This document shows, one piece after another, positions 7,963 through 21,473 of a stretch of DNA of 64,000 nucleotides. This stretch comes from Chthonomonadaceae bacterium (GTDB taxonomy: Bacteria; Armatimonadota; Fimbriimonadia; Fimbriimonadales; Fimbriimonadaceae): positions 744,001-808,000 of the forward strand of contig CP054189.1 in NCBI GenBank assembly GCA_015709495.1. The letters are read 5' to 3'. Below the pieces are notes generated by a model. That model did not search any database and was not told the DNA's origin. It worked only from the letters and a program-made list of their open reading frames with translations. Each line of letters starts with the position of its first letter. Position 1 is the stretch's first letter. A program made the position numbers and the translations under genes.

Positions 7963-8043
7963 GTGATAGGTCGTTTGGCCGCTCTTCGGTGATGAGGCTT
8001 GGCTCTCCAATAGGTGCCCCAAAAAGCACTCCCAATTTTGCTC

Positions 8044-8072
8044 TTGACGTTTGGCGGAATGTGTTGTATAAG
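8044..8072 (+). promoter_or_regulatory. Strong sigma-70 type promoter, probably giving a leaderless transcript
   Basis: TTGACG at 8044-8049, a 17-base spacer, then TATAAG at 8067-8072. The predicted start of transcription, six to eight bases later, falls on or next to the ATG at 8080, so the mRNA would have almost no leader. It drives the secreted-protein stump at 8080 and is divergent from the arsR promoter. Confidence 0.65.
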
Positions 8073-8079
8073 TAAGGGC

Positions 8080-8227
8080 ATGAGGGGGCGTGCGCGGAAG
8101 GGGGTTTTCGGCAGGCTCGTCTCGATCGCGCTCGTCTTCAGCCTTGCCTACAGCTCGGGTTCGGCCGGGATCAACGGCGCTTTGCTGGCGGCGGCGGATT
8201 TTGCCCAAAGGGCGCTGCAATCAGGTC
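8080..8227 (+). pseudogene. 5' stump of a secreted-protein gene, cut by IS256
   Basis: From ATG 8080 the frame encodes a basic N-terminus (MRGRARKGVFGR) followed by a hydrophobic core LVSIALVFSLAYSSGSAG, a convincing Sec signal peptide, and about 20 further residues. At 8228 the left inverted repeat of the IS256-type element begins and the frame runs into the element. A large surface protein is expected here. Since Rhs repeats with no start of their own appear at 13081, this may be the original 5' end of that Rhs gene, but no overlapping sequence proves the link. Confidence 0.5.
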
Positions 8228-8248
8228 GTGTCCCAGGACGTGGTGTAG
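8228..8248 (+). repeat. Left terminal inverted repeat of the IS256-type element
   Basis: Begins GTGTCCCAG and ends CGTGGTGTAG; pairs with 9502-9522 at 19 of 21 positions. Confidence 0.85.
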
Positions 8249-8275
8249 TGGGCGCCATCCGCCTGTTCCATGATA

Positions 8276-9448
8276 TCACCATCCGCTTGCTCTTGCGAGC
8301 AGCGCGTCGTTTTTCGTGCTCGGCAGCCCGAGGCTCTCCTTGGGAGCCTGCCGCCGGGAGACTTGCCATTCGTCGTGCTGCTCCATGAGGATCGCTCCCA
8401 CCAGCCGCACCACCCCGGATTCGTTCGGGAATATCTGCACCACGTCCGCGCGGCGCTTCACCTCCCGGTTGAGCCGCTCCAGCCCGTTGGTCGAGGCCAG
8501 TTGCGGCCACAAACCCGGCGGATGCGCCCGGTGCGCCAGCACGTCCTCCATCGCCTCCCGCATGAGCCGAACCGCCTCCGGAAAGGTCTCCTCCAGATGC
8601 GCGGCGACCTCCAGCCACTTGGCCTTGGTGGTCTCTATATCGGCCTGAGCCAGAGCCGTGCGGATCAGGCAGGCCACCATCTCCTTGCGCCCTTTGGGAA
8701 CCCGCGCCAGCACATTGCGCATGAAGTGCACCCGGCAGCGCTGCCACTGGCAGCCCATGCAGCGCTCGATCGCTTTCTTGAGCCCCGAGTGGGAGTCTGA
8801 GACCACCAGCCTCGTCCCCCGAAGGCCCCGGTCGAGGACCGAGCGCAGGAACTCCGTCCAGAACTCCTCCGTCTCGGCGTGCCCGACGCGCATCCCCAAA
8901 ACCTCGCGGCGCCCCTCTTCGTTCAGTCCGATCGCCACCACCGCCGCCTTCGACACGATCCGAGAGCCGTCGCGAACCTTCACGTAGGTAGCGTCCAGCC
9001 AGAGGTAAGGGAAGCTCCCCTCGAGCGGACGCTCCAGGAACTCCCGAACCCGCCCCTCGACCTCCAGGCAAAGGCGAGAGACCTCGCTCTTGGAGATCCC
9101 GGAGCCTCCCAGAGCCTGCACCAGATCGTCCACCGCCCGGGTGGAAACCCCTTGCAGGTACGCTTCCTGAATTACGCTCACGAGAGCCTTCTCCACGCCC
9201 CGGCGAGGCTCAAGAAAGCTCGGGAAGTAGCTGCCCGTGCGGAGCTTGGGAATCCGGAGTTCTACGTCTCCCACGCGCGTCTTCCAACTGCGGTCGCGGT
9301 ACCCGTTTCTCCAGGTCTTCCGGTCTGAAGCCTCCCTTTGAGCCTCCACCTCGAGTTCCATCAGCTCCGAAAGTGCGTCTCTGACCAACTCTCGAAGCAT
9401 GTCCCTAACTTCCGCGCCCTCCAAGAGCGCTATGCTATTGTTTGCCAT
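8276..9448 (-). CDS. IS256-family (mutator-type) transposase
   Basis: 390 residues, starting at ATG 9448 with a GGAGG site just upstream. The mutator-type transposase pattern is complete: first Asp in WLDATYVKV, second Asp in VVSDSHSGL, and Glu in [13 protein letters not shown], with the family's [10 protein letters not shown] stretch between. The N-terminus carries the usual helical DNA-binding region. No frameshift or stop is seen, so the enzyme is probably active. It lies wholly between the terminal repeats. Confidence 0.95.
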
Positions 9449-9501
9449 TCTCGTCCTCCGTTGACTTCTCACAAAGCAACCGGACGGAATGGCGCCTCTT
9501 T

Positions 9502-9522
9502 CTACACCACGAGCTGGGACAC
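9502..9522 (-). repeat. Right terminal inverted repeat of the IS256-type element
   Basis: Reverse complement begins GTGTCCCAG; two mismatches to the left repeat at the centre. Marks the right end of the element. Confidence 0.85.
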
Positions 9523-9683
9523 TAACGCAATCCGGGTGGGGCTTTTCACAGATCGGCCTTTGGAATGCCTGTGCAGGGAGTACTCCCGGCGACCCGCAGG
9601 TTCCTCTGGTAACAGTTACGGCGGGCATAAGATGCGGCGCCTCCCCCCAATCCAAGACCCTGACCCGCGATCGTGCTCTGCAC

Positions 9684-11615
9684 TTAGCGGTCAATGCCGC
9701 CCAATGGAATAGTGCCCCGATAGCCCCGCAGGATGGCATCGATCTGCTCCTTGCTGAGGCTGCTGAGCGCTTGGGGTGAGGGGGCTCTTGTGGGGCGAGT
9801 TCCGAATGGAACGAAGACTGCCTGGCCATTGCGAAAGCTACACTTCAGCCGCAGACGACTTACGCTGACTCGGTAGGCATACTGAGCGAGTACCGCACTA
9901 TCGTCAAGGTCGGGAGGAAGGATTCGCCGCAGGAAGCTCCCGTACTCCCGCGGGTCGAATCGTACCGGAAGAGCTCCAGTCCCTAAGTCGTCCATTGGAC
10001 TGAATTGCTCCCTTTGATCGCTGTCCAAGGAGAAGGTAGCTTGCGACAAGAACTCTTCGGCGGCCATCAGCGCCGGTCTTGGATTTGGACCCTGCTCAAC
10101 GGCATCTATAAAGGGCAGCCACTCTTCGATGATGTCGCGAGCGCTTGTTAGGTCTTCGGCGGTATCTAGGATCGAGACCGCTTCCCCCGCCCGAACCCGC
10201 GTCCAGTAATCTCGCTGAAGCAGCATTTGACAGAGTCGTAAAGGAGGAGTGTCGGAAAGTAGCTCGACTCCACTCCGCTGGCTAAGCCGACGAGTCGCCT
10301 GACACAACACATAGAGATCAGGGCTCCCAGCCGCACCGGAGAGAGCTACAAAGTCGTCGATCGACTCCTGATATCGCGCACCCACGCTATCGACATACCT
10401 CACGGCAGGGTCGGCATTCCACGTCGACGACTCTGAGGCAAGCAAGTTCCGAGGCCTAATGACGATTACGCCGTCGATTTCTAAGACCTCGACCGGCGCT
10501 ACTTCGCTAGCGGCGGCCAATACCTCGAAAAGCTGCCATTTTCCAACGCCCGCAGATCGAATGAGAGGCAGTATCCAGCGTTCCTCGCACACGACCAGCG
10601 CTTCCTCAAATCCCGCATCGTGAAGCGCATCCTGAATCGGACCGGCGAGGAAGCTCCAGGGAGATTTGGCGAACGCGCGAACTGACGAAGCGGAAATCTC
10701 CGCGCCTACCTGTCCTGCCGGTTGACCCGATCCCGGTGCTGCAGCCCGAGAGAGTGCGAGGACGCTTGCGGGCCAACGGACTTGGACGGACCGAATCCGG
10801 CGCATCTTCTCGTCGTCCAAGGCATATCGCGGGGCAGCTTTAAGTTCCGCCTGGAGTCCGAAAGTGTCCTTCACTCGGTTCATCTGGTCGAAGGCGCGAG
10901 CGATCACCGTCCACTTGTCATTGTCTCTGCTGATTCGGACGCCAACGGCTGCGGGTTCGATTCGTTCCTCAGGTGGGAGCCCCGAAGCTTGATCCGCGGA
11001 CTGCATCAAAGCTAAGTAGCCTTCGATCTGTCGAAGCGCCCCAGTCTTGAATTGCCGTTCGAGGCCCTTCTCAGTACGGCCGAATCGTACAAAAGAGCCC
11101 GCCCACAACGCCGCAAGTTCGGACTCATCTGCCTCCAGCAGCGCTTGGAGACAAACTGGAGCCAACTGGCCGGATGACCAAGAAGGACCTCTCTGACCGC
11201 TTCGCAGAGCGGCTGCGATCGCTTCGGCTGCCGTTCGAAATCCGTCGCTTCCCCGCTCAGGGACGCTACCGGTTCCTTGGGACGCCAACTGCTGCTTCGC
11301 ACTTCGGAAGTCCTCGAGCGCGGTTGCCTGCAACTTGCGTCGCAACTCGCTGGATCGGAACCATGATGGGGTTTCCTGGTCCCTTTCGAGGTGCAGAGCG
11401 TGCTCGAAGAGTCCGAGCCGTTCTTCGCCGGGCCTCGTCAAGATTCCGAAGACCGAGAGGCCCCTCGTCGCTTGGGGAAAGCTCACTTCCTTAGCAACGA
11501 TGCGTTCCTCCTTCCACTGGGCGATAAGCGTCCCGAGTGAGGTGCAAAACCTGTCTCCAGCCCCAACTGCGACGGCCAAGGCGATCAACTGCGAGAGAAT
11601 CGAAATCATCGTCAT
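9684..11615 (-). CDS. Unknown 643-residue protein with N-terminal signal or anchor, third gene of the VKOR operon
   Basis: No family recognised. The first 20 residues ([20 protein letters not shown]) are hydrophobic and could be a signal peptide or an anchor. The rest is soluble and mixed, with no transmembrane run, few cysteines and no obvious catalytic motif; several stretches look helical (for example around residues 90-130 and 150-200). The C-terminus contains [24 protein letters not shown]. The ATG overlaps the stop of the VKOR-DsbA gene as ATGA, so it belongs to the same transcript as that gene and the small Cys-rich peptide. A role in export, maturation or surface anchoring of the peptide is guesswork from position only. 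Confidence 0.8.
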
Positions 11616-12715
11616 TGTCGTTGAACAACTGCTTGAGTATTATTGCGTCCCTGGAACGGAACAACAATGACCCTCTTGGCAGACTTCTCAGCTACTATAA
11701 ATACCGCAGGCGTTCCCTGCAGTCCAAAATGGCGTCCTATGGCCACATTCTCTCTCACCCAGTTTGCCGCCTCGGCAATTGAAAACCTCGACTCAAGGCG
11801 CACGCCCGAAAGAATACTGTCAGCGATACTCGAGACCTCGCGTTGAGATTTCGGACGGTGATCTAGACCGTCTTCCATTAATCGCATTAACACCCAAGCT
11901 GACTGGTACTGTTCCGCCACGCAAGCCAAATCAAATGAAACCGAATCCATACTAAGTGGAAAGTGTAATACCGTAACTCGCAAGTTCTCTCCAAACTGCG
12001 CCCTTCTCTTTAAGTTTCTGATCTCCGTAAGGCACGCACCGCATCGCATATCAACGAACATAACTATTTCGGTGGTTCCCTCGCCAAATCTGATGTGGTC
12101 GGAGCGAGTCTCGCCAAAGAGAGCGTCACCCTGAAGCGTAGGAAAGTAACTTTCTAACAACGCCACATGTTCTCTTTCTTCTGCCACGAGGGCGTATACG
12201 AGAGCCAACGCAACGAGCGTAGGCCCCGCAAGCACAATTCGCCCGGGAACGGTGACTTTCGGCGCTCGAACGCCTAACGCCATGCATAACGCGAGAATCC
12301 CACTGGCAAGTGCGGAGCCCAGGCACCTCTCGCAGAGTTCGCCAATTGCGAAATGCATAAGTAACACCAATAAACATGAAGCCACCGTTCCCCCAGCTAC
12401 CAAAAGCGTGGCAAAAAACACAAGACGGGGCCAAAGGCCGGTAAACGACAGCATCAGTAGGACCATCGAATAGTACACTACACCTATGAATGAGATGGGT
12501 ACGCCAGAGAGGTGCGAGTACCGACTGTACGCAACTGCAGAACATGCTTCGCCAGCTGCACATCCCGCACCTAAGCCCGGAATGTAAGGAAAACACGCTT
12601 GGACGGATAGTACAACGCCAAGAACAGACGCAGTCAGTGCAAGCAACCAACAAGCCATACTGGCGACCAGCTTCCAATGTGCAGAGACTGGCGTGTTCCG
12701 CTGTTTTGTCCTCAT
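11612..12715 (-). CDS. Vitamin K epoxide reductase domain fused to DsbA-like thioredoxin domain
   Basis: 367 residues from ATG 12715 (a GTG at 12784 is an alternative). The N-terminal half is a VKOR membrane domain with four to five helices: a loop cysteine pair in GAGCAAGEACSAV and the quinone-linked CxxC in GELCERCLG. After a further helix comes a thioredoxin-like domain with active site RCGAC and the cis-Pro loop GTPAVFI. Fusions of this kind take electrons from protein thiols through the thioredoxin domain to VKOR and quinone, forming disulfides in exported proteins. It lies between a tiny Cys-rich exported peptide and a 643-residue unknown, which suggests dedicated substrates. Confidence 0.93.
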   Translation of the reverse strand: MRTKQRNTPVSAHWKLVASMACWLLALTASVLGVVLSVQACFPYIPGLGAGCAAGEACSAVAYSRYSHLSGVPISFIGVVYYSMVLLMLSFTGLWPRLVFFATLLVAGGTVASCLLVLLMHFAIGELCERCLGSALASGILALCMALGVRAPKVTVPGRIVLAGPTLVALALVYALVAEEREHVALLESYFPTLQGDALFGETRSDHIRFGEGTTEIVMFVDMRCGACLTEIRNLKRRAQFGENLRVTVLHFPLSMDSVSFDLACVAEQYQSAWVLMRLMEDGLDHRPKSQREVSSIADSILSGVRLESRFSIAEAANWVRENVAIGRHFGLQGTPAVFIVAEKSAKRVIVVPFQGRNNTQAVVQRQ

Positions 12716-12768
12716 GCCTTGGGTTATCGCCTGAGGCCCACTATATTGCGATGCAGCCGCCGCCACGA

Positions 12769-12978
12769 CTACCAGTGCTCGCACTCACAAGTTGCCGGTG
12801 CGACTAGGGCACAATAGTATTCTGAGGGACAGGCAGTGGGACTCAAGGAACATTGCTGCGTTTCCGGGTCTATAGGACACCGAATTGGATCGCGCACCTC
12901 TGATAGGGTCAGAGAAAATGCAGCAGAGAGGACAGCGACCGCTCCAAAAAGGGCCAGGATTCTTCGTAGCAGGACCAT
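12769..12978 (-). CDS. Tiny secreted peptide with six cysteines
   Basis: 69 residues from ATG 12978, with a strong GGAGG site seven bases upstream. A signal peptide (residues 1 to about 25, core LALFGAVAVLSAAFSLTL) is followed by a mature part of about 44 residues with six cysteines at 34, 43, 50, 56, 64 and 66. No known peptide family is recognised. It heads the operon whose next gene is an oxidative folding enzyme, so up to three disulfides are likely in the exported form. It could be a bacteriocin-like or signalling peptide, or a structural surface peptide. The gene and its neighbours are visibly richer in A+T than the flanking housekeeping genes. Confidence 0.75.
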   Translation of the reverse strand: MVLLRRILALFGAVAVLSAAFSLTLSEVRDPIRCPIDPETQQCSLSPTACPSEYYCALVAPATCECEHW

Positions 12979-13056
12979 GTTTCCTCCGTCGACGGACGAT
13001 CTCGTATCGGGCAAGCTCAACGTAGCCGGACCCTTCTTATACCGACCGTCGCTCAT

Positions 13057-13062
13057 ATTATA
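13057..13062 (-). promoter_or_regulatory. Candidate -10 box for the Cys-rich peptide operon
   Basis: Minus-strand TATAAT about 80 bases upstream of the peptide start at 12978. No convincing -35 box is seen, so this is a weak call. The box lies immediately before the first recognisable Rhs codons on the opposite strand. Confidence 0.35.
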
Positions 13063-13080
13063 TCGCAGGTTTGCCCAAGA

Positions 13081-15345
13081 CAGGAGAAATCTTCCACCAC
13101 GCTGGGGTACGACACCAGCGGCAACCTCACAGACATCACCGACCCAGAGGACGGGCTGACCGAGATCGCCTACAACTCCCTGGGGTGGGTCACGAGCGTC
13201 ACGGACCCGAACGGCATCACCGAGTCGTTCGCCTACGACGAGTGGGGGCGGCTGTCGGTGATCACCCACGACGACGAGGAGGAGGTTCTTCGCTCCTACA
13301 ACGAGGTGGGGAGGATCACCAGCGTCACCAACGAGCGCGGCAAGGTCACCTCGTATGCCTACGACGACGCGGGCAGGCTCACCCAGGTCACGAACGCCGA
13401 GGAGGAGTCGGGGACCTACGCCTACAACTCGAACGGGTGGCTCACCAGCGTCACCAACGGGCGCGGCAAGACCCGCAACTACGCCTACACCGCAAGGGGC
13501 GAGGTCTACACCCTCACGCTGGCAGATAGCTCGGTCGAGACCTGGAGCTACAACGGCAACGGCCAGGTGTCGGCCTACACCAACCCCCTCTCGCAGACCG
13601 TCTCTTACGCCTACGACGACGCGGGGCGGATGATTGGGGTGGACTATCCCACCGGAACCGACACGGCCTTCAGCTACGACTTCGCCGGGCGGCGCGCCCA
13701 GATGACCGACGCCACCGGCACGACGAACTGGACCTACGACGCCGCTTCGCAGCTCACGCTGCTGGAGACCCCCGAGGGCGAGATCGCCTACGCCTACGAT
13801 GACGCCGGGCGCCGAACGAGCATGGACGTGGACGGGGTGGGGGTGACCACCTATGCCTACGACGACGCGGGACGTCTACTGAGCCTGGAGAACCCGTTCG
13901 AAGAGGTCACGGCGTTTGCCTACGACGCCGGGGGGCGGGTCACCGAAAGGACGCTGGACAGCGGCATGTACGAGACGGTTTCGTACGACGTCCGCAGCCG
14001 CGTGACGCAGGTTCTTTTGAAGAACTCCTCGCACTCCACGGTCCGCACGCAGACCTGGACCTATGATGCGGCTTCGAACGTGCTGACCCACACCACGGGC
14101 GGGGTGCAGACCAGCTACGGCTACGACGACATCGACCAGCTCGTTTCTGAGTCCAGGAACGGCTACTCGGCTTCGTATTCGTACGATGCCAACGGCAACC
14201 GCCTGACTCGGACGGTGAATTCCGTCACCGAGGACTACGTTTACGACGATGCGGACAAGCTGCTGGAGGTCAAGGTCGGGCAGCAGACGGTGAAGGAGTT
14301 CACGTACGATTCGGCCGGGCGGACGACGGCGGTGGAGACCTCGGCCGGGACGACCTCGCTGACCTACGATTATGAGTCGAGGGTGACGGGGATCACCTAC
14401 CCCAACCAGTCGACCAACTCGTTTTCCTACAATGGGCTGGATACCAGGGTGGGGCTGACCGACTCCGGCGGGTCGAAGACCTTCCTTCGCGATGGGGTGT
14501 CGGTGACCTCGCCGGTGCTCTCCGACGGCGCAGCCACCTACACGCCGGGGATCTCGGAGCGGCGCTCCTCTACCACGACCTTCTACCACGCCGGGATCAA
14601 GAACGGGGACTCGCAGTCCAACACCTCTGAAAGCGTCACCGCCAGCGTCCAATACGACGCCTTCGGCAACGTCACCTCGTCCTCAGGAACCTGGTCCGGC
14701 CCCTTCGCCTACGGAGGACCTTACGGCTACCAATCCGACCCGGATTCCGGCCTCAAGCTCCTGGGGCATAGGTATTACGATCCCTCGACGGGGAGGTTCC
14801 TGACTCGGGATATAGTCAAGTCAGAGCGCAACTGGTATTCTTACTGTCACAACAGCCCTCTCCGGTTCGCAGATCCGAAGGGTTTCGACAAGATCATCCT
14901 GCCTAATGACCCGTCAGGCTTGCCCGATGGTTGGAAGGAGATTCCGCATGACGGAAACGAGAAGGGTCATCGGAGATTCATTGCACCGGGCGGAAGAGAA
15001 GGCTTGGACTTCGACGAGGCCAAGCCCGGAGCGGGCGGACACAAAGAGAGAAACCACTGGCACAAGCTCAAGCGAAAGGGACTCAAGCTGAAAAGGGAAA
15101 AGGGAGGCAGAGGCGAGGACGTGCACCTTGACCCCGGCCAGGAAATAGACGTCAACACCGAACCTGTTTGTCCAGCACCCGAGCCTGAGTCAATGTGGGA
15201 CCACGTGGATTGGAACCAGGTGTTCGTAAGAACAGCAATCGTAGTTGCAGTTCTTGCGGCTGTTCTGTTTCCTGAAGCGATACCCGTTATTATCTCCATC
15301 GGTGCCAGAAGTGCGCCCCGCGTGGGCCGCGTCCTTGTCCCATAA
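13081..15345 (+). CDS. Rhs/YD-repeat protein, 5'-truncated, with tip A
   Basis: Rhs repeats are readable in frame from 13081 (QEKSSTTLGYDTSGN), but no usable start codon precedes GTG 13258, so the natural 5' end is missing. About 30 YD repeats of the form YDDAGR-(x)-T run to the conserved core end GLKLLGHRYYDPSTGRFLTRD near 14755-14815. After the core, a new C-terminal tip of about 175 residues begins (NPLRFADPKG type junction at 14860-14884). The tip contains LDFDEAKPGAGGHKERNHWH, an HLDPGQE element and a hydrophobic C-terminal helix; the H-x-H pair at 15055-15063 could be catalytic. Rhs proteins encapsulate such tips as toxins. The stop overlaps the next gene by one base (TAATG). Confidence 0.85.
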   Translation, partial: QEKSSTTLGYDTSGNLTDITDPEDGLTEIAYNSLGWVTSVTDPNGITESFAYDEWGRLSVITHDDEEEVLRSYNEVGRITSVTNERGKVTSYAYDDAGRLTQVTNAEEESGTYAYNSNGWLTSVTNGRGKTRNYAYTARGEVYTLTLADSSVETWSYNGNGQVSAYTNPLSQTVSYAYDDAGRMIGVDYPTGTDTAFSYDFAGRRAQMTDATGTTNWTYDAASQLTLLETPEGEIAYAYDDAGRRTSMDVDGVGVTTYAYDDAGRLLSLENPFEEVTAFAYDAGGRVTERTLDSGMYETVSYDVRSRVTQVLLKNSSHSTVRTQTWTYDAASNVLTHTTGGVQTSYGYDDIDQLVSESRNGYSASYSYDANGNRLTRTVNSVTEDYVYDDADKLLEVKVGQQTVKEFTYDSAGRTTAVETSAGTTSLTYDYESRVTGITYPNQSTNSFSYNGLDTRVGLTDSGGSKTFLRDGVSVTSPVLSDGAATYTPGISERRSSTTTFYHAGIKNGDSQSNTSESVTASVQYDAFGNVTSSSGTWSGPFAYGGPYGYQSDPDSGLKLLGHRYYDPSTGRFLTRDIVKSERNWYSYCHNSPLRFADPKGFDKIILPNDPSGLPDGWKEIPHDGNEKGHRRFIAPGGREGLDFDEAKPGAGGHKERNHWHKLKRKGLKLKREKGGRGEDVHLDPGQEIDVNTEPVCPAPEPESMWDHVDWNQVFVRTAIVVAVLAAVLFPEAIPVIISIGARSAPRVGRVLVP

Positions 15346-16055
15346 TGGAATTCGCTATGGACCGAGCCCTCGACTATTACCGCGCGTCGCTTAAACCCCT
15401 TGAGATAGAATTGTCCAGGGTATCTCCGTACTTCTCATCTGTGATTGTTCGAGGCTTCCCTTTGCCCGAGCACGACGAAGTACTCTGTCCTATGCAGGAC
15501 CAAGGAGCATCACTTGTACCCCGTTTGTTTTGTGAGCTCAGTAAGAAATCCAGGGCACTGATATTGATGGGATCCGGTGGAAGGGAAGGTGACTCTCCGG
15601 AGAGGTTTTTCGGTGGAGACCTCTCAACGGGGGCCACAGTCACTTATTTCCATTATCATACAACGTTCTACTGTGCTACAGACAAGCTTCCAAGTATCTA
15701 TGTACTACCAAATTCAAGGGAGCTGTCATGCGGCGAATGGGGATATGCAATCAATGTGGAATGTGTTGCCGCATTTGTACCTCCTAACTCATTGTCAGCG
15801 ATGGACGTGTTGAACGCATTGTTACGCAAAGAGACGGAACTTGGCGTGCTTTACAATAGCATGGGCGCCACGGAGTTTCACAACACAGCCATAGGCATGG
15901 CGATTCGATTTACGCAAGCGGTAATTCTTACTCAAGACGACGGAATGACTGTGGAGTTTCATGGATACCAAGTGGCCGATATTCTGCCATACCTAGAAAT
16001 CCTGCAAGGGTGTATGGCTCAGTTGAATGGTACCCCTAAGACTGACCAGCCTTGA
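15345..16055 (+). CDS. Putative immunity protein for Rhs tip A
   Basis: 236 residues, soluble, no signal peptide and no family recognised. It starts inside the stop of the Rhs gene (TAATG), the coupling expected of a toxin/immunity pair. Composition is clearly richer in A+T than the Rhs core, as is usual for exchanged tip-immunity modules. Notable stretches are ILMGSGGREGDSPERFFGG and FHYHTTFYC. Being cytoplasmic, it would suit a toxin acting in the cytoplasm. Function is inferred from position alone. Confidence 0.6.
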   Translation: MEFAMDRALDYYRASLKPLEIELSRVSPYFSSVIVRGFPLPEHDEVLCPMQDQGASLVPRLFCELSKKSRALILMGSGGREGDSPERFFGGDLSTGATVTYFHYHTTFYCATDKLPSIYVLPNSRELSCGEWGYAINVECVAAFVPPNSLSAMDVLNALLRKETELGVLYNSMGATEFHNTAIGMAIRFTQAVILTQDDGMTVEFHGYQVADILPYLEILQGCMAQLNGTPKTDQP

Positions 16056-17497
16056 GTTTGACTTTTTTAGTCGGCGGGTGGCCATCCCATGAGTTGGGTC
16101 TACAACTTACGGGTGGCACCCCAAACTCGTTTTGGGGTGTTTCGGGTGCGGGAGCAAAGCGCGGAGCAAGCTTCGCGCACTCGACGATTTCGTCGGAAAG
16201 CTACGAATACGACGCGGCGGGGAATCTGGTGGAAAAGAGCGTGAGCTCGGTGATGACGGAGTACGCATACGACGACATCGACCAGTTGGTTTCCGAGGTC
16301 AGAAACGGGTACTCGGCGAGCTATACCTATGATGCGAACGGGAACCGGACCTCGAAGGCGCTAAACGGCACGACCCAGAACTACGTGGTGGACGATACCG
16401 ATAAGCTGACCAGCATCACGCAAGGCGGGAATACGGTGAAGAGCTTTACCTACGATGCGGCCGGGAGGACCACAGCGGTCACCGTCGGCAACGACACGAC
16501 TACGCTCGCCTACGATTATGAATCCCGCATCACGCAGATCACGTATCCGAATCAGAGCACGAACAGTTTCAGCTACAATGGACTCGATACCAGGGTGAGC
16601 AAGGTGGATTCGACCGGAACCAGGACCTATCTCAGGGACGGGGCGTATGTCACGGACCCCGTGCTCTCGGATGGGGCAGCGATGTACACACCTGGGATCT
16701 CGGAGCGCAGGTCGAGCGCCACGAAGTTCTATCACCCCGACCGCCTGGGCACGACCGAGAGGCTCACCGACACCAACCAGTCCACGACCGACACCCGTCA
16801 GTACGACGCGTTCGGGTTGCTCACTTCCTCCTCAGGTAGCACCTCTACTCCCTTTGGCTTCGCAGGGGCCTGGGGCTACCAAGAGGACCCCGACTCCGGC
16901 CTGAAGCTCCTCGGGCATAGGTATTACGATTCGAGCACGGGCCGATTCCTGACCAGGGATCCCATCAAGGATGGGAGGAACTGGTATGGGTATTGCGAGA
17001 GTAATCCAATAGATCGCGTGGACCCGGCTGGCGACCAGTCGAGAGGCACGGTAGCCGCTGAGCGAGCGGAGGGCGCGGTCGGCAAGGGCCCTAAGGATTG
17101 TGAGGATTGGATTCGCAAACACGTATACCCAGGCGAATGGACCGATTGCAGAGCGCACGAACTTCCATCGAAACTCGATAACCTAACAAATTGGGATACC
17201 GTCACTAATGATGGCAGGTTTCAGCCCGGCGATTTAATCTGCATTGATAAGGGCGACATGAACAATGGGCACGTTCTGGTGGTAGGAAACAAACGCCGAG
17301 TCGTCAAGCGAAAGATCCAGATCGTGGAAAACGGAAAAAAGGTCAACCGCACCATTGATGTCAATCAAATTGATGTGATCGACGCCTCCCTCGATACCCG
17401 TAATGGCACGAGACATTGGATTGACGACGGGACGCCCTATGTTGACCCTTGGAAGAAACGAAACGGCGCTATCAAAGTGTACCGGCCTAGAGACTAG
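16052..17497 (+). CDS. Orphan Rhs core cassette with NlpC/P60- or CHAP-like tip B
   Basis: 481 residues in frame from TTG 16052, which overlaps the upstream stop (TTGA). The first 45 codons are dispersed-repeat sequence, and Rhs repeats start only near 16195, so a dedicated start is doubtful. The core ends in GLKLLGHRYYDSSTGRFLTRD and RNWYGYCESNPIDRVDPAG. The tip of about 160 residues has Cys350 (KDCEDWIRK), PGDLICID and His407 (NNGHVLVVG), the Cys-then-His order of papain-fold NlpC/P60 or CHAP peptidoglycan hydrolases. A peptidoglycan-cutting toxin is the likeliest reading. Its core is more diverged from the other two. Confidence 0.75.
   Translation: MSLTFLVGGWPSHELGLQLTGGTPNSFWGVSGAGAKRGASFAHSTISSESYEYDAAGNLVEKSVSSVMTEYAYDDIDQLVSEVRNGYSASYTYDANGNRTSKALNGTTQNYVVDDTDKLTSITQGGNTVKSFTYDAAGRTTAVTVGNDTTTLAYDYESRITQITYPNQSTNSFSYNGLDTRVSKVDSTGTRTYLRDGAYVTDPVLSDGAAMYTPGISERRSSATKFYHPDRLGTTERLTDTNQSTTDTRQYDAFGLLTSSSGSTSTPFGFAGAWGYQEDPDSGLKLLGHRYYDSSTGRFLTRDPIKDGRNWYGYCESNPIDRVDPAGDQSRGTVAAERAEGAVGKGPKDCEDWIRKHVYPGEWTDCRAHELPSKLDNLTNWDTVTNDGRFQPGDLICIDKGDMNNGHVLVVGNKRRVVKRKIQIVENGKKVNRTIDVNQIDVIDASLDTRNGTRHWIDDGTPYVDPWKKRNGAIKVYRPRD
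16076..16139 (+). repeat. Dispersed repeat copy 1 with perfect 9-bp hairpin
   Basis: Bases 16076-16120 recur at 20674-20718 with two mismatches out of 45. Bases 16117-16139 form a perfect hairpin CACCCCAAA-CTCGT-TTTGGGGTG; the same stem with another loop occurs at 21055-21077. The copy sits exactly at the junction between immunity gene A and Rhs cassette B. Confidence 0.75.
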
Positions 17498-17534
17498 GCG
17501 TGTCGCGTACCTTGGGCACCAGGCAGGAAACGTC

Positions 17535-18446
17535 ATGAAGAGTTGGTTTATCCTACAAATGGTAAGGGGCTTTGTTGCAGGTGCCTGCATGACAGTTCCT
17601 TGTTGTGCACCAACAGATGGGGCAGCACTCTATGTAGCTTCGATTTCGGTCAGCCCCGATAGAGTTGCGCACATCAGTGCTGGTGGGTCTGCAAGCAAGG
17701 TGAGTATTTACAGCCTATCGCCCTGGGTGGAGGCCTGGCGTGGGTTTGCTGCACAAGACGACAAAGGGCGAATCCTCTCAGTAGGCGTAAGCGGCCAAAC
17801 GGTTGTCCGCTCACCAGCACAAGAATTTATGGAATCTGGCACTTGGGCCATTTCGAGCGACGGGAGGTGGATAGCGTTTATCGATCAAGATGCGCGCACC
17901 GTGATATGCCACGCTATTGGCGCGGATATCGATCGCAGGTTTCAGATTGATGCAAAGCAACTGGAGGAGGCAGGTGTCTTGTGGGGAAGGAGTGAACCTT
18001 CTCTTGTCGGGTTCGTCTGGGCAGACGACGGACAGACTTTCGGATTTACTGTTCCCATTGACGGGTCCGAAGACTCCGGTGGGATCGCTGATGTCAGTAC
18101 GGTTGTTGCAAGCGCCAATGGCGATATTGTTGGGACACTGCGAGGTGTGGCGCCTGTCTTGATTACGTCAAATGGGGTCGTAATAGGAGTCACGGATCGA
18201 TGGGAGGGAGAGTATCGGCTAGTTAAAGCTCTTACGCGTGAGGGCAAGGAGCTTTGGCGGTTCGGGCCTGCTTGTGCTGTGGCTTCTGGTTTGAGAGAGC
18301 TAGGAGTCTTGCAGGTTCGTGGAGATCGCTGCTCTTGGCAACTGGTCGATCGATTGACAGGGAAGCGGATTCGATCTCTTCTTGATTCGTCTGAGTCGCC
18401 TGCAGTTTACATGGGTTATGAGGCAGTATTTGGAGTAGTGCGATAG
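17535..18446 (+). CDS. Putative immunity protein for Rhs tip B (exported, beta-propeller-like)
   Basis: 303 residues from ATG 17535, preceded by AGGAAA. The N-terminus is hydrophobic and Cys-containing (LQMVRGFVAGACMTVPCCAP), compatible with an exported protein or lipoprotein. The remainder shows repeated strand-rich units with SSDGRWIAFID and WADDGQTFGFTV motifs, reminiscent of WD40-like/PD40 propellers. The mixed A+T-rich composition matches other cassette tips. An exported location would suit protection against a wall-degrading toxin, but the pairing is inferred from gene order. Confidence 0.55.
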   Translation: MKSWFILQMVRGFVAGACMTVPCCAPTDGAALYVASISVSPDRVAHISAGGSASKVSIYSLSPWVEAWRGFAAQDDKGRILSVGVSGQTVVRSPAQEFMESGTWAISSDGRWIAFIDQDARTVICHAIGADIDRRFQIDAKQLEEAGVLWGRSEPSLVGFVWADDGQTFGFTVPIDGSEDSGGIADVSTVVASANGDIVGTLRGVAPVLITSNGVVIGVTDRWEGEYRLVKALTREGKELWRFGPACAVASGLRELGVLQVRGDRCSWQLVDRLTGKRIRSLLDSSESPAVYMGYEAVFGVVR

Positions 18447-18448
18447 CT

Positions 18449-19879
18449 GTGGCGAGAGTTGTTTCTTATTGCGTGAAGCTGGCCGTACAGTTTCAAAGCC
18501 GCGTGACGCAGGTTCTTCTGAAGAACTCCTCGAACCAGACGGTCCGAACGCAGACCTGGACCTACGACGCCGCGTCGAACGTGCTGACCCACACCACGGG
18601 CGGGGTGCAGACGAGCTACGGCTACGACGACATCGACCAGCTCGTTTCTGAGTCCAGGAACGGCTACTCGGCGAGCTACGCGTACGACGCCAACGGCAAC
18701 CGCCTGACGCGGACGGTGAACTCGGTCACCGAGGACTACGTTTACGACGACGCCGACAAGCTGCTGGAGGTCAACGTCGGGCAGCAGACGGTCAAGGAGT
18801 TCACCTACGACTCGGCCGGGCGGACGACCGCGGTCGAGACCTCGGCCGGGACCACCTCGCTGACCTACGACTATGAGAGCCGGGTGACCGGGATCACGTA
18901 CCCCAGCCAGTCGACGAACTCGTTTACGTACAACGGGCTCGATACCAGGGTGGGGATGACCGACTCCGGCGGGTCGAAGACCTTCCTTCGGGATGGGGTT
19001 TCGGTGACCTCGCCGGTGCTCTTGGACGGCAGCGCGGACTACACCCCCGCAATCTCAGAGCGTCGCTCCTCTACGACGACCTTCTACCACGCAGGAATCA
19101 AGAACGGGGATTCCCAGACCTCGACCGGCCAATCCGTCACAGGCTCAATCCAGCACGACGCCTTCGGCAACGTCGCCTCGTCTTCGGGAACCTGGTCCGG
19201 CCCCTTCGCCTACGGCGGCCCTTACGGCTACCAATCCGACCCGGATTCTGGCCTGAAGCTCCTGGGGCATAGGTACTACGATCCTTCTACGGGGAGGTTT
19301 CTGACTAGGGACCCGGTAAAGGATGGGCGGAATTGGTATGGGTACTGTGGAAGCGCAGCATTAGTTCGCACTGACCCTACTGGGACGGTTACACTGGTCT
19401 TCAACGGAACCAAACTCAAGTGGTTTCGCGATGATGGTACCTTAGTTGACTCTGTACCGGCCTTTTCAGGCGCACCTGGTAAGGGCCGTCGCGACCAAGG
19501 GCAGAGGGGCGGACCCATACCTGAAGGAACCTACTCCATAGATCCTAATGAGGATCAATACGCAACATATAACATCTTTGCCTATCCCTGGGCTGGATAT
19601 CCACCCAGCCCCGCTTGGGGCGATCGAAGGATCCCCCTCAAGGGAGGGCCGGATGTTCCAGGGCGAACTGGAGGGTACTTTCTTCACGGTGGGGAGTTTG
19701 TCGGTTCAATTGGATGCATCGATATCGGGCCGAACGATATAAAGATCATTGATAAACTTGGTAAACTAACTAAGAAAATAAAACTCGTTGTGGATTACAT
19801 GGATTGGAATGGGACCGTACCCTCGTCAGATAACAATAAACCAGTCAAATGGAAAGAGTACTTGCAGCAGCGACAATGA
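18449..19879 (+). CDS. Orphan Rhs core cassette with L,D-transpeptidase/Tlde1-like tip C
   Basis: 476 residues from GTG 18449. The first 16 codons are not Rhs; from 18497 the sequence matches the Rhs core at 13994-14860 almost residue for residue. The core ends RNWYGYCGSAALVRTDPTG. The tip (about residues 308-476) has GGPIPEGTYSI and the active-site stretch HGGEFVGSIGC with His413, Ser420 and Cys423, matching the HGG-x-GSxGC pattern of YkuD-type L,D-transpeptidases and Tlde1/DUF2778 effectors, which alter peptidoglycan stems. The stop is overlapped by the next gene (ATGA), a membrane protein that is the probable immunity partner. Confidence 0.8.
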   Translation: MARVVSYCVKLAVQFQSRVTQVLLKNSSNQTVRTQTWTYDAASNVLTHTTGGVQTSYGYDDIDQLVSESRNGYSASYAYDANGNRLTRTVNSVTEDYVYDDADKLLEVNVGQQTVKEFTYDSAGRTTAVETSAGTTSLTYDYESRVTGITYPSQSTNSFTYNGLDTRVGMTDSGGSKTFLRDGVSVTSPVLLDGSADYTPAISERRSSTTTFYHAGIKNGDSQTSTGQSVTGSIQHDAFGNVASSSGTWSGPFAYGGPYGYQSDPDSGLKLLGHRYYDPSTGRFLTRDPVKDGRNWYGYCGSAALVRTDPTGTVTLVFNGTKLKWFRDDGTLVDSVPAFSGAPGKGRRDQGQRGGPIPEGTYSIDPNEDQYATYNIFAYPWAGYPPSPAWGDRRIPLKGGPDVPGRTGGYFLHGGEFVGSIGCIDIGPNDIKIIDKLGKLTKKIKLVVDYMDWNGTVPSSDNNKPVKWKEYLQQRQ

Positions 19880-20331
19880 CGGCCCGCTATCAACTGAAGA
19901 TGCGCTACGCACAGCTAATCTGTGGAATGGTGTTCGCATTTGCATTGTCAGTTGATTCGGCTGATCTTCAGATCATATTTCCATTTGCAGACTTTCTTAC
20001 AATAGATTCTTTGCTTAGGGCAGTAGTTATTGTGTGTGTCGTTCTTTTGCTCATCGTTCCGGTCTTTGTTCGGTTTGATGGACTGTCTCTACGTGGTATT
20101 GCTGTCGCATCGTGTGCGATCGGGGTTTTGGCAGTGGGAGCGAGTAAATGGATTTCGTTCCTTGCCCATCAATACGAGCATCCCTACGGTTTCGAGCTGT
20201 ACCTAGTGCAATACGTTTGGCAGTTTGCAATTCCTAGTGTGGTTGTTGCGCTATTATGCGGGTTGTTGTTCTTCGCTAACAAGTGGTGTGAGAAGCTTTT
20301 CAGGATACTCAGGCGACGAGCGAAGCAGTAG
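19876..20331 (+). CDS. Putative membrane immunity protein for Rhs tip C
   Basis: 151 residues from ATG 19876, which overlaps the Rhs stop as ATGA. Three to four membrane helices are visible (around residues 14-30, 48-68, 74-96 and 112-135) and the C-terminus is strongly basic (KLFRILRRRAKQ). No known family. An inner-membrane immunity protein is plausible against a toxin working on periplasmic peptidoglycan. The sequence is A+T-rich relative to the Rhs core. Confidence 0.6.
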   Translation: MTARYQLKMRYAQLICGMVFAFALSVDSADLQIIFPFADFLTIDSLLRAVVIVCVVLLLIVPVFVRFDGLSLRGIAVASCAIGVLAVGASKWISFLAHQYEHPYGFELYLVQYVWQFAIPSVVVALLCGLLFFANKWCEKLFRILRRRAKQ

Positions 20332-20376
20332 GCTGTTCCCGGCAATTTCAGCGTCTCTGGCCAGGGGGAGCGGGCA

Positions 20377-20498
20377 ATGTGCGCGCAGTCAGCAGAGGTG
20401 ACGGTCAAGTCATTCACCTACGATGCGGCCGGGAGGACGACCGCGGTCACCGTCGGGAACGATACGGCCACGCTCGCCTACGACTATGAATCCCGGAT
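20377..20498 (+). pseudogene. Short Rhs core fragment
   Basis: About 34 codons of Rhs core (VKSFTYDAAGRTTAVTV and following) that match the core of cassette B around 16436-16535. The fragment is cut at its right by an IS3-type end at about 20499 and at its left joins non-Rhs sequence. It marks the broken end of the cassette array. Confidence 0.75.
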
Positions 20499-20672
20499 TG
20501 GTCTGCCCCCCAGAATTGAAGACGTCAGAAAAGTAGTTCTCTGGTTCAAACTGGAGGCAATCATGAAGAGATCGAAGTTCACCGAGGAGCAGATCGTGAG
20601 GATTCTGCAGGAGGCCGCATCGGGCCAGAAGACGCAGGCCTAACTCTGTCGCGACCACGGAGCCAGTCCGGG
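20499..20672 (+). mobile_element. Remnant of the left end of an IS3-family element
   Basis: Begins TGGTCTGCCCCCCAG and contains the start of an orfA gene at 20563 (MKRSKFTEEQIVRILQEA), the hallmark of IS3-type transposase subunit A. The frame is broken by TAA at 20641, where a Gln codon is expected (continuing LCRDHGAS), and the sequence stops at about 20672, where the dispersed repeat begins. No right end or orfB is present, so it is dead. Confidence 0.85.
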
Positions 20673-20673
20673 C

Positions 20674-20718
20674 GGGTGGCCGTCCCATGAGATGGGTCTA
20701 CAACTTACGGGTGGCACC
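20674..20718 (+). repeat. Dispersed repeat copy 2
   Basis: 45 bases matching 16076-16120 with two mismatches. It begins exactly where the IS3 remnant ends. Confidence 0.8.
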
Positions 20719-20842
20719 CGGATGGGGTCTCCGGGAGCCCTGCCGGGGAGAGTGCCTGTCCCCTTCTGCCGCGCTCCTTGGGGTGCTCGTGTTACTTGGC
20801 CCGCGAGCCGCGGGCGCTCCCAGAGACGCGGGGCATCCCAGC
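20709..20842 (+). repeat. Imperfect direct repeat, left copy (about 134 bp)
   Basis: Matches 21074-21206 over its length with scattered mismatches and small indels; the core GCTCGTGTTACTTGGCCCGC and following bases are identical. The two copies are about 365 bases apart. Confidence 0.75.
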
Positions 20843-21054
20843 CTTTGGCCCCCGGCTAACGACCTGCATCCCCTCCGGGGACTTGTTTCAGCAAGCTCCT
20901 GGGCTTTTCCGGCCTGCTCTACAAGTCAGACCGGGCCACCCGGTGCTGAAGGAAGCGCGTTCGTTTCCCCGGTCTGCCCTTCGTGTCCGACGGGGCCACC
21001 CGGCACTGAGGGAAGGGCGCCCGCCGCGGGATCGCGCAAGGGGGCGGTGAGCTG

Positions 21055-21379: not shown

Positions 21380-21473
21380 TGGCGGGAATGTGTAGGAATC
21401 GAACCCACCCGTCCCCGTAAGAGGACACACCGGTTTTGAAGACCGAGGGGCACACCAGCACCCATCCACTCCC
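21380..21473 (-). tRNA. selC: tRNA-Sec (anticodon UCA)
   Basis: 94 bases including encoded CCA. Reading the minus strand: acceptor GGGAGTGG with 3' ACATTCCC (seven pairs plus one mismatch), six-pair D stem GGGTGC/GTGCCC with a four-base TGGT loop, anticodon stem TCGGT/ACCGG around loop CTTCAAA (anticodon TCA, plus-strand 21437-21439), long variable arm with six-pair stem GTCCTC/GGGGAC, T stem GTGGG/CCTAC with loop TTCGATT, discriminator G. The six-pair D stem, tiny D loop and long variable arm are the hallmarks of selenocysteine tRNA. The host should therefore encode SelA, SelB and SelD elsewhere. It borders the right side of the accessory island. Confidence 0.92.

Follow-up and report, generated by a model that had tools for sequence, protein, structure and literature searches.

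The operon lies in a stretch of DNA of 64,000 nucleotides (the window) from a genome of the class Fimbriimonadia, phylum Armatimonadota, and comprises three open reading frames (ORFs) on the minus strand (Table 1). The first encodes a peptide of 69 residues with a hydrophobic N-terminal segment and six cysteines, the second a VKOR fused to a DsbA-like domain, and the third a protein of 643 residues, also with a hydrophobic segment at its N-terminus; all three were named in the initial annotation and all are present. The same annotation described the operon as A+T-rich, which holds for the peptide gene (54% GC) and the VKOR gene (52%) but not for the gene of the 643-residue protein (59%, against 61% for the window). 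As had also been noted, the last two genes are coupled by an ATGA overlap. Both the VKOR stop codon and the ATGA fall inside a block that exists without VKOR in the sister strain G094, and the coupling may therefore be a by-product of a junction. For the VKOR gene, a start at the ATG at 12715 is likelier than one at the GTG at 12784, which overlaps the stop codon of the peptide gene.

Table 1. Features of the peptide-VKOR-partner operon and its surroundings, in positions of the window.
Feature	Position	Strand	Basis
Peptide gene, exported six-Cys (69 aa; mature ~43-44 aa)	12769..12978	-	ORF and translation; Cys framework matches five further peptides
Shine-Dalgarno GGAGG of peptide gene	12983..12987	-	Sequence
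Predicted Sec-type signal peptide, residues 1-26	12901..12978	-	Charged n-region then hydrophobic stretch; cleavage site by eye
Mature peptide, C-x8-C-x6-C-x5-C-x7-C-x-C-x3-end	12772..12900	-	Translation, pattern scan
Accessory VKOR-DsbA fusion gene (390 aa from GTG 12784)	11612..12784	-	Pfam PF07884 E 4e-12; tree position among 12 divergent copies
VKOR loop cysteine pair C75/C81	12542..12562	-	Sequence
VKOR CxxC, CERC residues 151-154	12323..12334	-	Sequence
DsbA-like CxxC, CGAC residues 248-251	12032..12043	-	Sequence
ATGA overlap, VKOR stop / 643-aa start	11612..11615	-	Sequence
643-aa exported partner gene	9684..11615	-	Profile-profile comparison with STN-containing Fimbriimonadia family
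First STN/N0-like unit, residues ~21-86	11358..11555	-	AlphaFold model; family member's N-terminal unit matches secretin N0
Putative second STN-like β-α-β-α-β-β unit, residues ~339-388	10452..10601	-	Inferred from AlphaFold secondary structure
Block common with G094 (97.1%), there without VKOR or peptide	9564..11626	-	Strain comparison
Mutator/IS256-type insertion sequence, 21-bp inverted ends, downstream of 643-aa gene	8228..9522	-	PF00872 E 2.8e-113; inverted repeat I7
Variable region, non-collinear with G094, containing operon and Rhs fragments	8006..20701	.	Collinearity ends at 8005 and resumes at ~20702 elsewhere in G094

The peptide gene has a strong GGAGG ribosome-binding site shortly upstream of its ATG, and all six cysteines of the product fall within the last 36 residues. 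Export is predicted here, as for the other peptides described below, from simple hydrophobicity rules for signal peptides. A comparison with Pfam gave a sub-threshold lustrin match only (E 0.12), and no match was found among plasmids.

VKOR enzymes pass electrons on to quinone. The VKOR domain of the second protein scores 46.9 bits against PF07884 (cut-off 27.5) and its catalytic cysteines are intact, which bears out the initial reading of a VKOR-DsbA fusion. Pfam matches of the C-terminal part to DsbA and thioredoxin fall below the curated cut-offs; a Thr-Pro pair at residues 358–359 occupies the position of the DsbA cis-proline. A profile search with a threshold of 1e-8 found VKOR matches in 155 of the 291 genomes of the phylum, and 122 of these VKORs were taken into a tree. 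It separates, with a split support of 98, 110 copies that mostly follow taxonomy from 12 divergent ones that include the copy of the window; both groups were drawn up from this same data set, and owing to the long branches of the accessory copies their arrangement within the group of 12 is not relied on. By its place in the tree, the enzyme of the window is an accessory copy of divergent sequence and not the housekeeping one; an ordinary VKOR-DsbA is found in the same genome (G000:C1:189840). The accessory copy has no plasmid match.

By the terms of the initial annotation, absence of the triplet from every other genome would have counted against its proposal. The same triad occurs at four further loci, in four genomes, so that the arrangement is conserved, and the pairing of a disulfide-forming enzyme with a tiny exported cysteine-rich peptide recurs there together with a large exported third protein. 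The order peptide-VKOR-643 of the window genome (G000) becomes peptide-644-VKOR in G094, which belongs to the same species (L186), VKOR-peptide-701 in G046 (L194), VKOR-peptide-702 in G048 (L195) and VKOR-peptide-658 in G075 (L263), where the numbers are the lengths of the third protein. This gives five loci with three gene orders among the genomes searched, some of which are fragmented. A sixth peptide of the same type is encoded elsewhere in G000, in a peptide-644 pair without VKOR (L254). The recurrence of the trio elsewhere with a changed gene order argues against accidental adjacency. No paper describing a triad of peptide, VKOR and STN partner was found in the literature.

All six peptides appear exported and share the framework C-x7-12-C-x4-6-C-x5-8-C-x7-10-C-x-C near the C-terminus. 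Those of G048 and G046 (76 and 77 residues) look exported and carry the cysteine framework of the window peptide on an otherwise different sequence. In a scan of 12,042 distinct frames from 1.42 Mb of fetched DNA the framework matches only the triad loci and the VKOR-less pair of G000, while 0.34 matches are expected from shuffled frames; as the pattern was fitted afterwards to these same peptides, the figure measures specificity and is no blind test. An HMM built from two peptides and run across the 291 genomes found its own members alone above noise. The peptide sequences are by themselves too divergent, and gene context is therefore required to find relatives. The second peptide, that of the G094/G000 type, seems to be under constraint in its mature part (dN 0.008, dS 0.087), a comparison that covers few changes.

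The enzyme varies between the triads. The VKOR of G046 reads as two ORFs, and that of G075 (L263:1858-3033) has CPAT in place of the DsbA-like CxxC, which may leave it impaired or dependent on one cysteine. In view of these two cases, decay or alteration of the enzyme is possible at some of the loci.

An association of the accessory VKORs with cysteine-rich products is also seen when the two VKOR classes are compared, a comparison that is less circular than the framework scan: an exported cysteine-rich ORF lies within 1.3 kb of 6 of the 12 accessory copies and of 2 of the 110 others (Fisher p 6e-6). At five loci (L185, L188, L190, L191 and L192) other accessory VKORs stand near longer exported cysteine-rich proteins of 113–151 residues, together with an exported protein of 350–400 residues with a C-terminal hydrophobic tail, and these loci are possibly a second type of module. 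Locus L189 (L189:493-5295) contains an exported cysteine-rich protein of 124 residues, a DsbA-like membrane protein of 313 residues, a protein with a peptidase C39 domain and an accessory VKOR. Additional VKOR-DsbA copies that form a second set are located near a PilQ-like secretin and adjoining pilus-type genes in genomes of the Fimbriimonas group (L197–L202).

The third protein was described initially as unrecognised. It indeed has no Pfam match, but profile-profile comparison places it, as a remote member, in a large family of Fimbriimonadia proteins that contain secretin N0/STN-type domains. The partners of 701, 702, 644 and 658 residues belong to one family (P0008/P0009 E 6e-111; P0008/P0007 2e-13), whose profile finds relatives in 105 of the 291 genomes, nearly all of them Fimbriimonadia. 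Members often occur several to a genome and sometimes in tandem, mostly with no such peptide adjoining. Two loci (L270 and L271) contain tandem arrays of several STN-family paralogues, with no peptide in the scanned flanks, and represent a lineage-specific expansion.

The 643-residue protein scores 69.2 in hhalign against a 48-member family profile (E 1.7e-8, 487 columns) and its copy in G094 scores 77, with more than 400 aligned columns for both. Among the 178 ORFs tested, which include these two proteins and two fragments of them, the best others are secretins with 43.6 or lower, matching the family solely via their own STN region, and the remaining ORFs score about 30 or lower. Less sensitive searches had not made the link: a five-member HMM gave no match at E 10, pairwise comparison gave no significant identity (a local BLAST E of 0.004 at best), and neither BLAST nor a first three-sequence hhalign run connected the protein to the family, while the 48-member profile connected both copies. 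Close relatives were found neither by a degenerate-pattern scan of the genome contigs nor among plasmids or PDB sequences.

The AlphaFold model of the 701-residue member (P0008) has a pLDDT of 87.5, and its five best structural matches are all secretin N0 domains, at low Z-scores (3.1–3.8, below 5) over 72–77 residues. For the 643-residue protein the model has a pLDDT of 71.4 and contains two units with an STN-like order of strands and helices; as a whole it has no meaningful match in the PDB, the best Z-score, 4.4 over 51 residues, reflecting perhaps just a common arrangement. The Pfam secretin pore domain (PF00263) is absent from P0003 and P0007–P0009, whereas the same search detects it in the true secretins of L197 and L199.

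The proposal that the operon moves as a unit is not supported by comparison with G094. There the 643-residue gene, 97% identical, stands alone at another place, and the two strains hold the accessory VKOR at different loci. Between G000 and G094 the dS of the 643-residue gene is 0.040, against 0.010–0.013 for the two genes used as backbone, the ordinary VKOR and the 644-residue gene, suggesting that the 643-residue gene was transferred separately. G000 possesses the G094-type peptide and the 644-residue gene and lacks the 1.7-kb piece which in G094 (L186:6344-8058) carries the VKOR and an ORF for a HicB-like antitoxin. This piece is cleanly missing, with a short direct repeat of about 11 bp at the junction, and each strain thus has one accessory VKOR, at different loci. 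With the 643-residue gene alone in G094, the VKORs at different loci and the surrounding region non-collinear, the complete operon does not act like a single mobile unit of fixed content.

Several further features mark this region. The insertion sequence downstream of the 643-residue gene splits sequence that is continuous in G094. The stretch 3' of the gene (window 8145–9683; L038:14336-14640) is repeated at 10 places in G000 and 6 in G094 (E up to 1, several of them weak); because of these copies, and because the common block has an abrupt start, an integron-type gene cassette was considered as the possible nature of the 643-residue gene. A row of several Rhs-repeat ORFs or fragments extends over positions 13100–21000 of the window, with near copies elsewhere in G094, and a tRNA-SeC gene (21380–21473) is located just past the right end of the non-collinear region.

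Taken together, the genes are fairly probably a Fimbriimonadia module for making and handling an exported disulfide-rich peptide, in which oxidative folding would be carried out by a dedicated VKOR-DsbA enzyme and an STN protein would act as partner. This mechanism draws on the gene anatomy, on the knowledge that VKOR enzymes reoxidise DsbA-like partners (PMC3792642) and on peptide clusters that encode their own disulfide enzymes (PMC12457901). The peptide would be exported through Sec, after which the fused DsbA-like domain would oxidise its cysteines to three disulfides and the VKOR part would hand the electrons to quinone. The partner, which looks like a pore-less secretin reduced to its docking end, might then bind, store or deliver the peptide within the envelope once it is folded. 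The peptide may finally serve in competition, in signalling or as part of a surface structure. One VKOR could serve more than one locus, as G000 has a second peptide-partner pair with no adjoining VKOR and each strain has one accessory VKOR at a different locus.

Other functions, which cover the bacteriocin, signal and coat roles suggested initially, were considered for the same genes. It is unlikely that the folded peptide is a bacteriocin-type weapon inhibiting related cells, with the STN protein involved in immunity or export. Glycocin clusters do pair dedicated disulfide enzymes with small cysteine-rich precursors (PMC12457901), the location, in a region where Rhs fragments and an insertion sequence also lie, varies between strains, and the peptides are so strongly diverged that the HMM search gave no further homologues; on the other hand, the partner is large, many members of its family have no such peptide adjoining, and no immunity protein, ABC exporter, protease or modifying enzyme was recognised in the triads. 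More broadly, neither a modification enzyme nor a protease-transporter was recognised among the listed ORFs beside the six-cysteine triads, where part of the neighbours was scanned (the C39 protein belongs to the distinct locus L189), and no dedicated transporter, immunity gene or receptor pair was recognised. The peptide could also be a pheromone, with the STN protein as receptor or transducer in the envelope, a role comparable to that of STN domains in TonB-dependent transducers. The STN/N0-like domain of the partner would suit such a cell-cell signal, as would the persistence of the peptide with the partner even where VKOR is missing (L254), but the triads showed no gene for a FecR, a sigma factor or a kinase, and the partner has no recognised β-barrel or channel domain, so that signalling is also considered improbable.

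Little weight is likewise given to a structural or metal-binding envelope peptide, with the VKOR as redox carrier for many exported proteins. The longer cysteine-rich proteins beside other accessory VKORs (L185, L188, L190–L192) and the secretin and pilus-type genes beside others (L197–L202) are in line with it, but the six-cysteine framework is kept in the triads despite very different sequences, which fits one defined fold better than it does loose metal binding. Least probable is an accidental assembly by mobile elements of a short unrelated ORF, a VKOR moved from its place and an orphan gene: in G094 the 643-residue gene does stand by itself, and the region has been rearranged, yet the trio recurs at four further loci, which brings the number of gene orders to three, and the accessory VKORs are enriched for exported cysteine-rich neighbours. 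The preferred reading of a peptide-folding and -handling module can be extended, as a tentative proposal, to a previously undescribed peptide-secretion or -signalling system of Armatimonadota, in which the VKOR-DsbA would be dedicated to one three-disulfide peptide, the pore-less secretin-like STN protein would carry or sense that peptide, and the components would be exchanged between strains.

Dedicated disulfide enzymes for secreted bacterial peptides are best known from Gram-positive bacteriocins, the glycocins, while here a VKOR is seemingly tied to one small substrate in a little-studied phylum. The six-cysteine framework, the divergent VKOR and the STN protein together provide a handle for finding further modules, and extra VKOR copies in a genome are suggested as markers of cysteine-rich exported products.

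The NVEALA peptides of Bacteroidetes are a possible analogue of the peptide. Defensin-like CS-alpha-beta peptides have C-x3-C and C-x-C spacings; in the common framework a C-x-C is present and the second gap measures 4–6 residues, not 3. The N-terminal domain of the partner family resembles the N0/STN domain of secretins such as PilQ, XcpQ, MxiD and InvG, but the partner contains no secretin pore domain; besides a second STN-like unit it has a large remaining part that matches nothing known. Glycocin clusters (sublancin with BdbAB, glycocin F with GccCD; PMC12457901) likewise place a small cysteine-rich precursor beside its own disulfide-forming enzymes, whereas the module described here has a VKOR-DsbA fusion, a Sec-like signal peptide and an STN partner, and no glycosyltransferase or protease-transporter is recognised in it. 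The architecture of the enzyme, a VKOR reoxidising a DsbA- or thioredoxin-like domain, is the same as in the actinobacterial VKOR/DsbA pair (Rv2968c-Rv2969c) and the cyanobacterial Trx-VKOR fusions (PMC3792642); those systems are general oxidases, while the copy described here is additional and divergent and adjoins one small candidate substrate.
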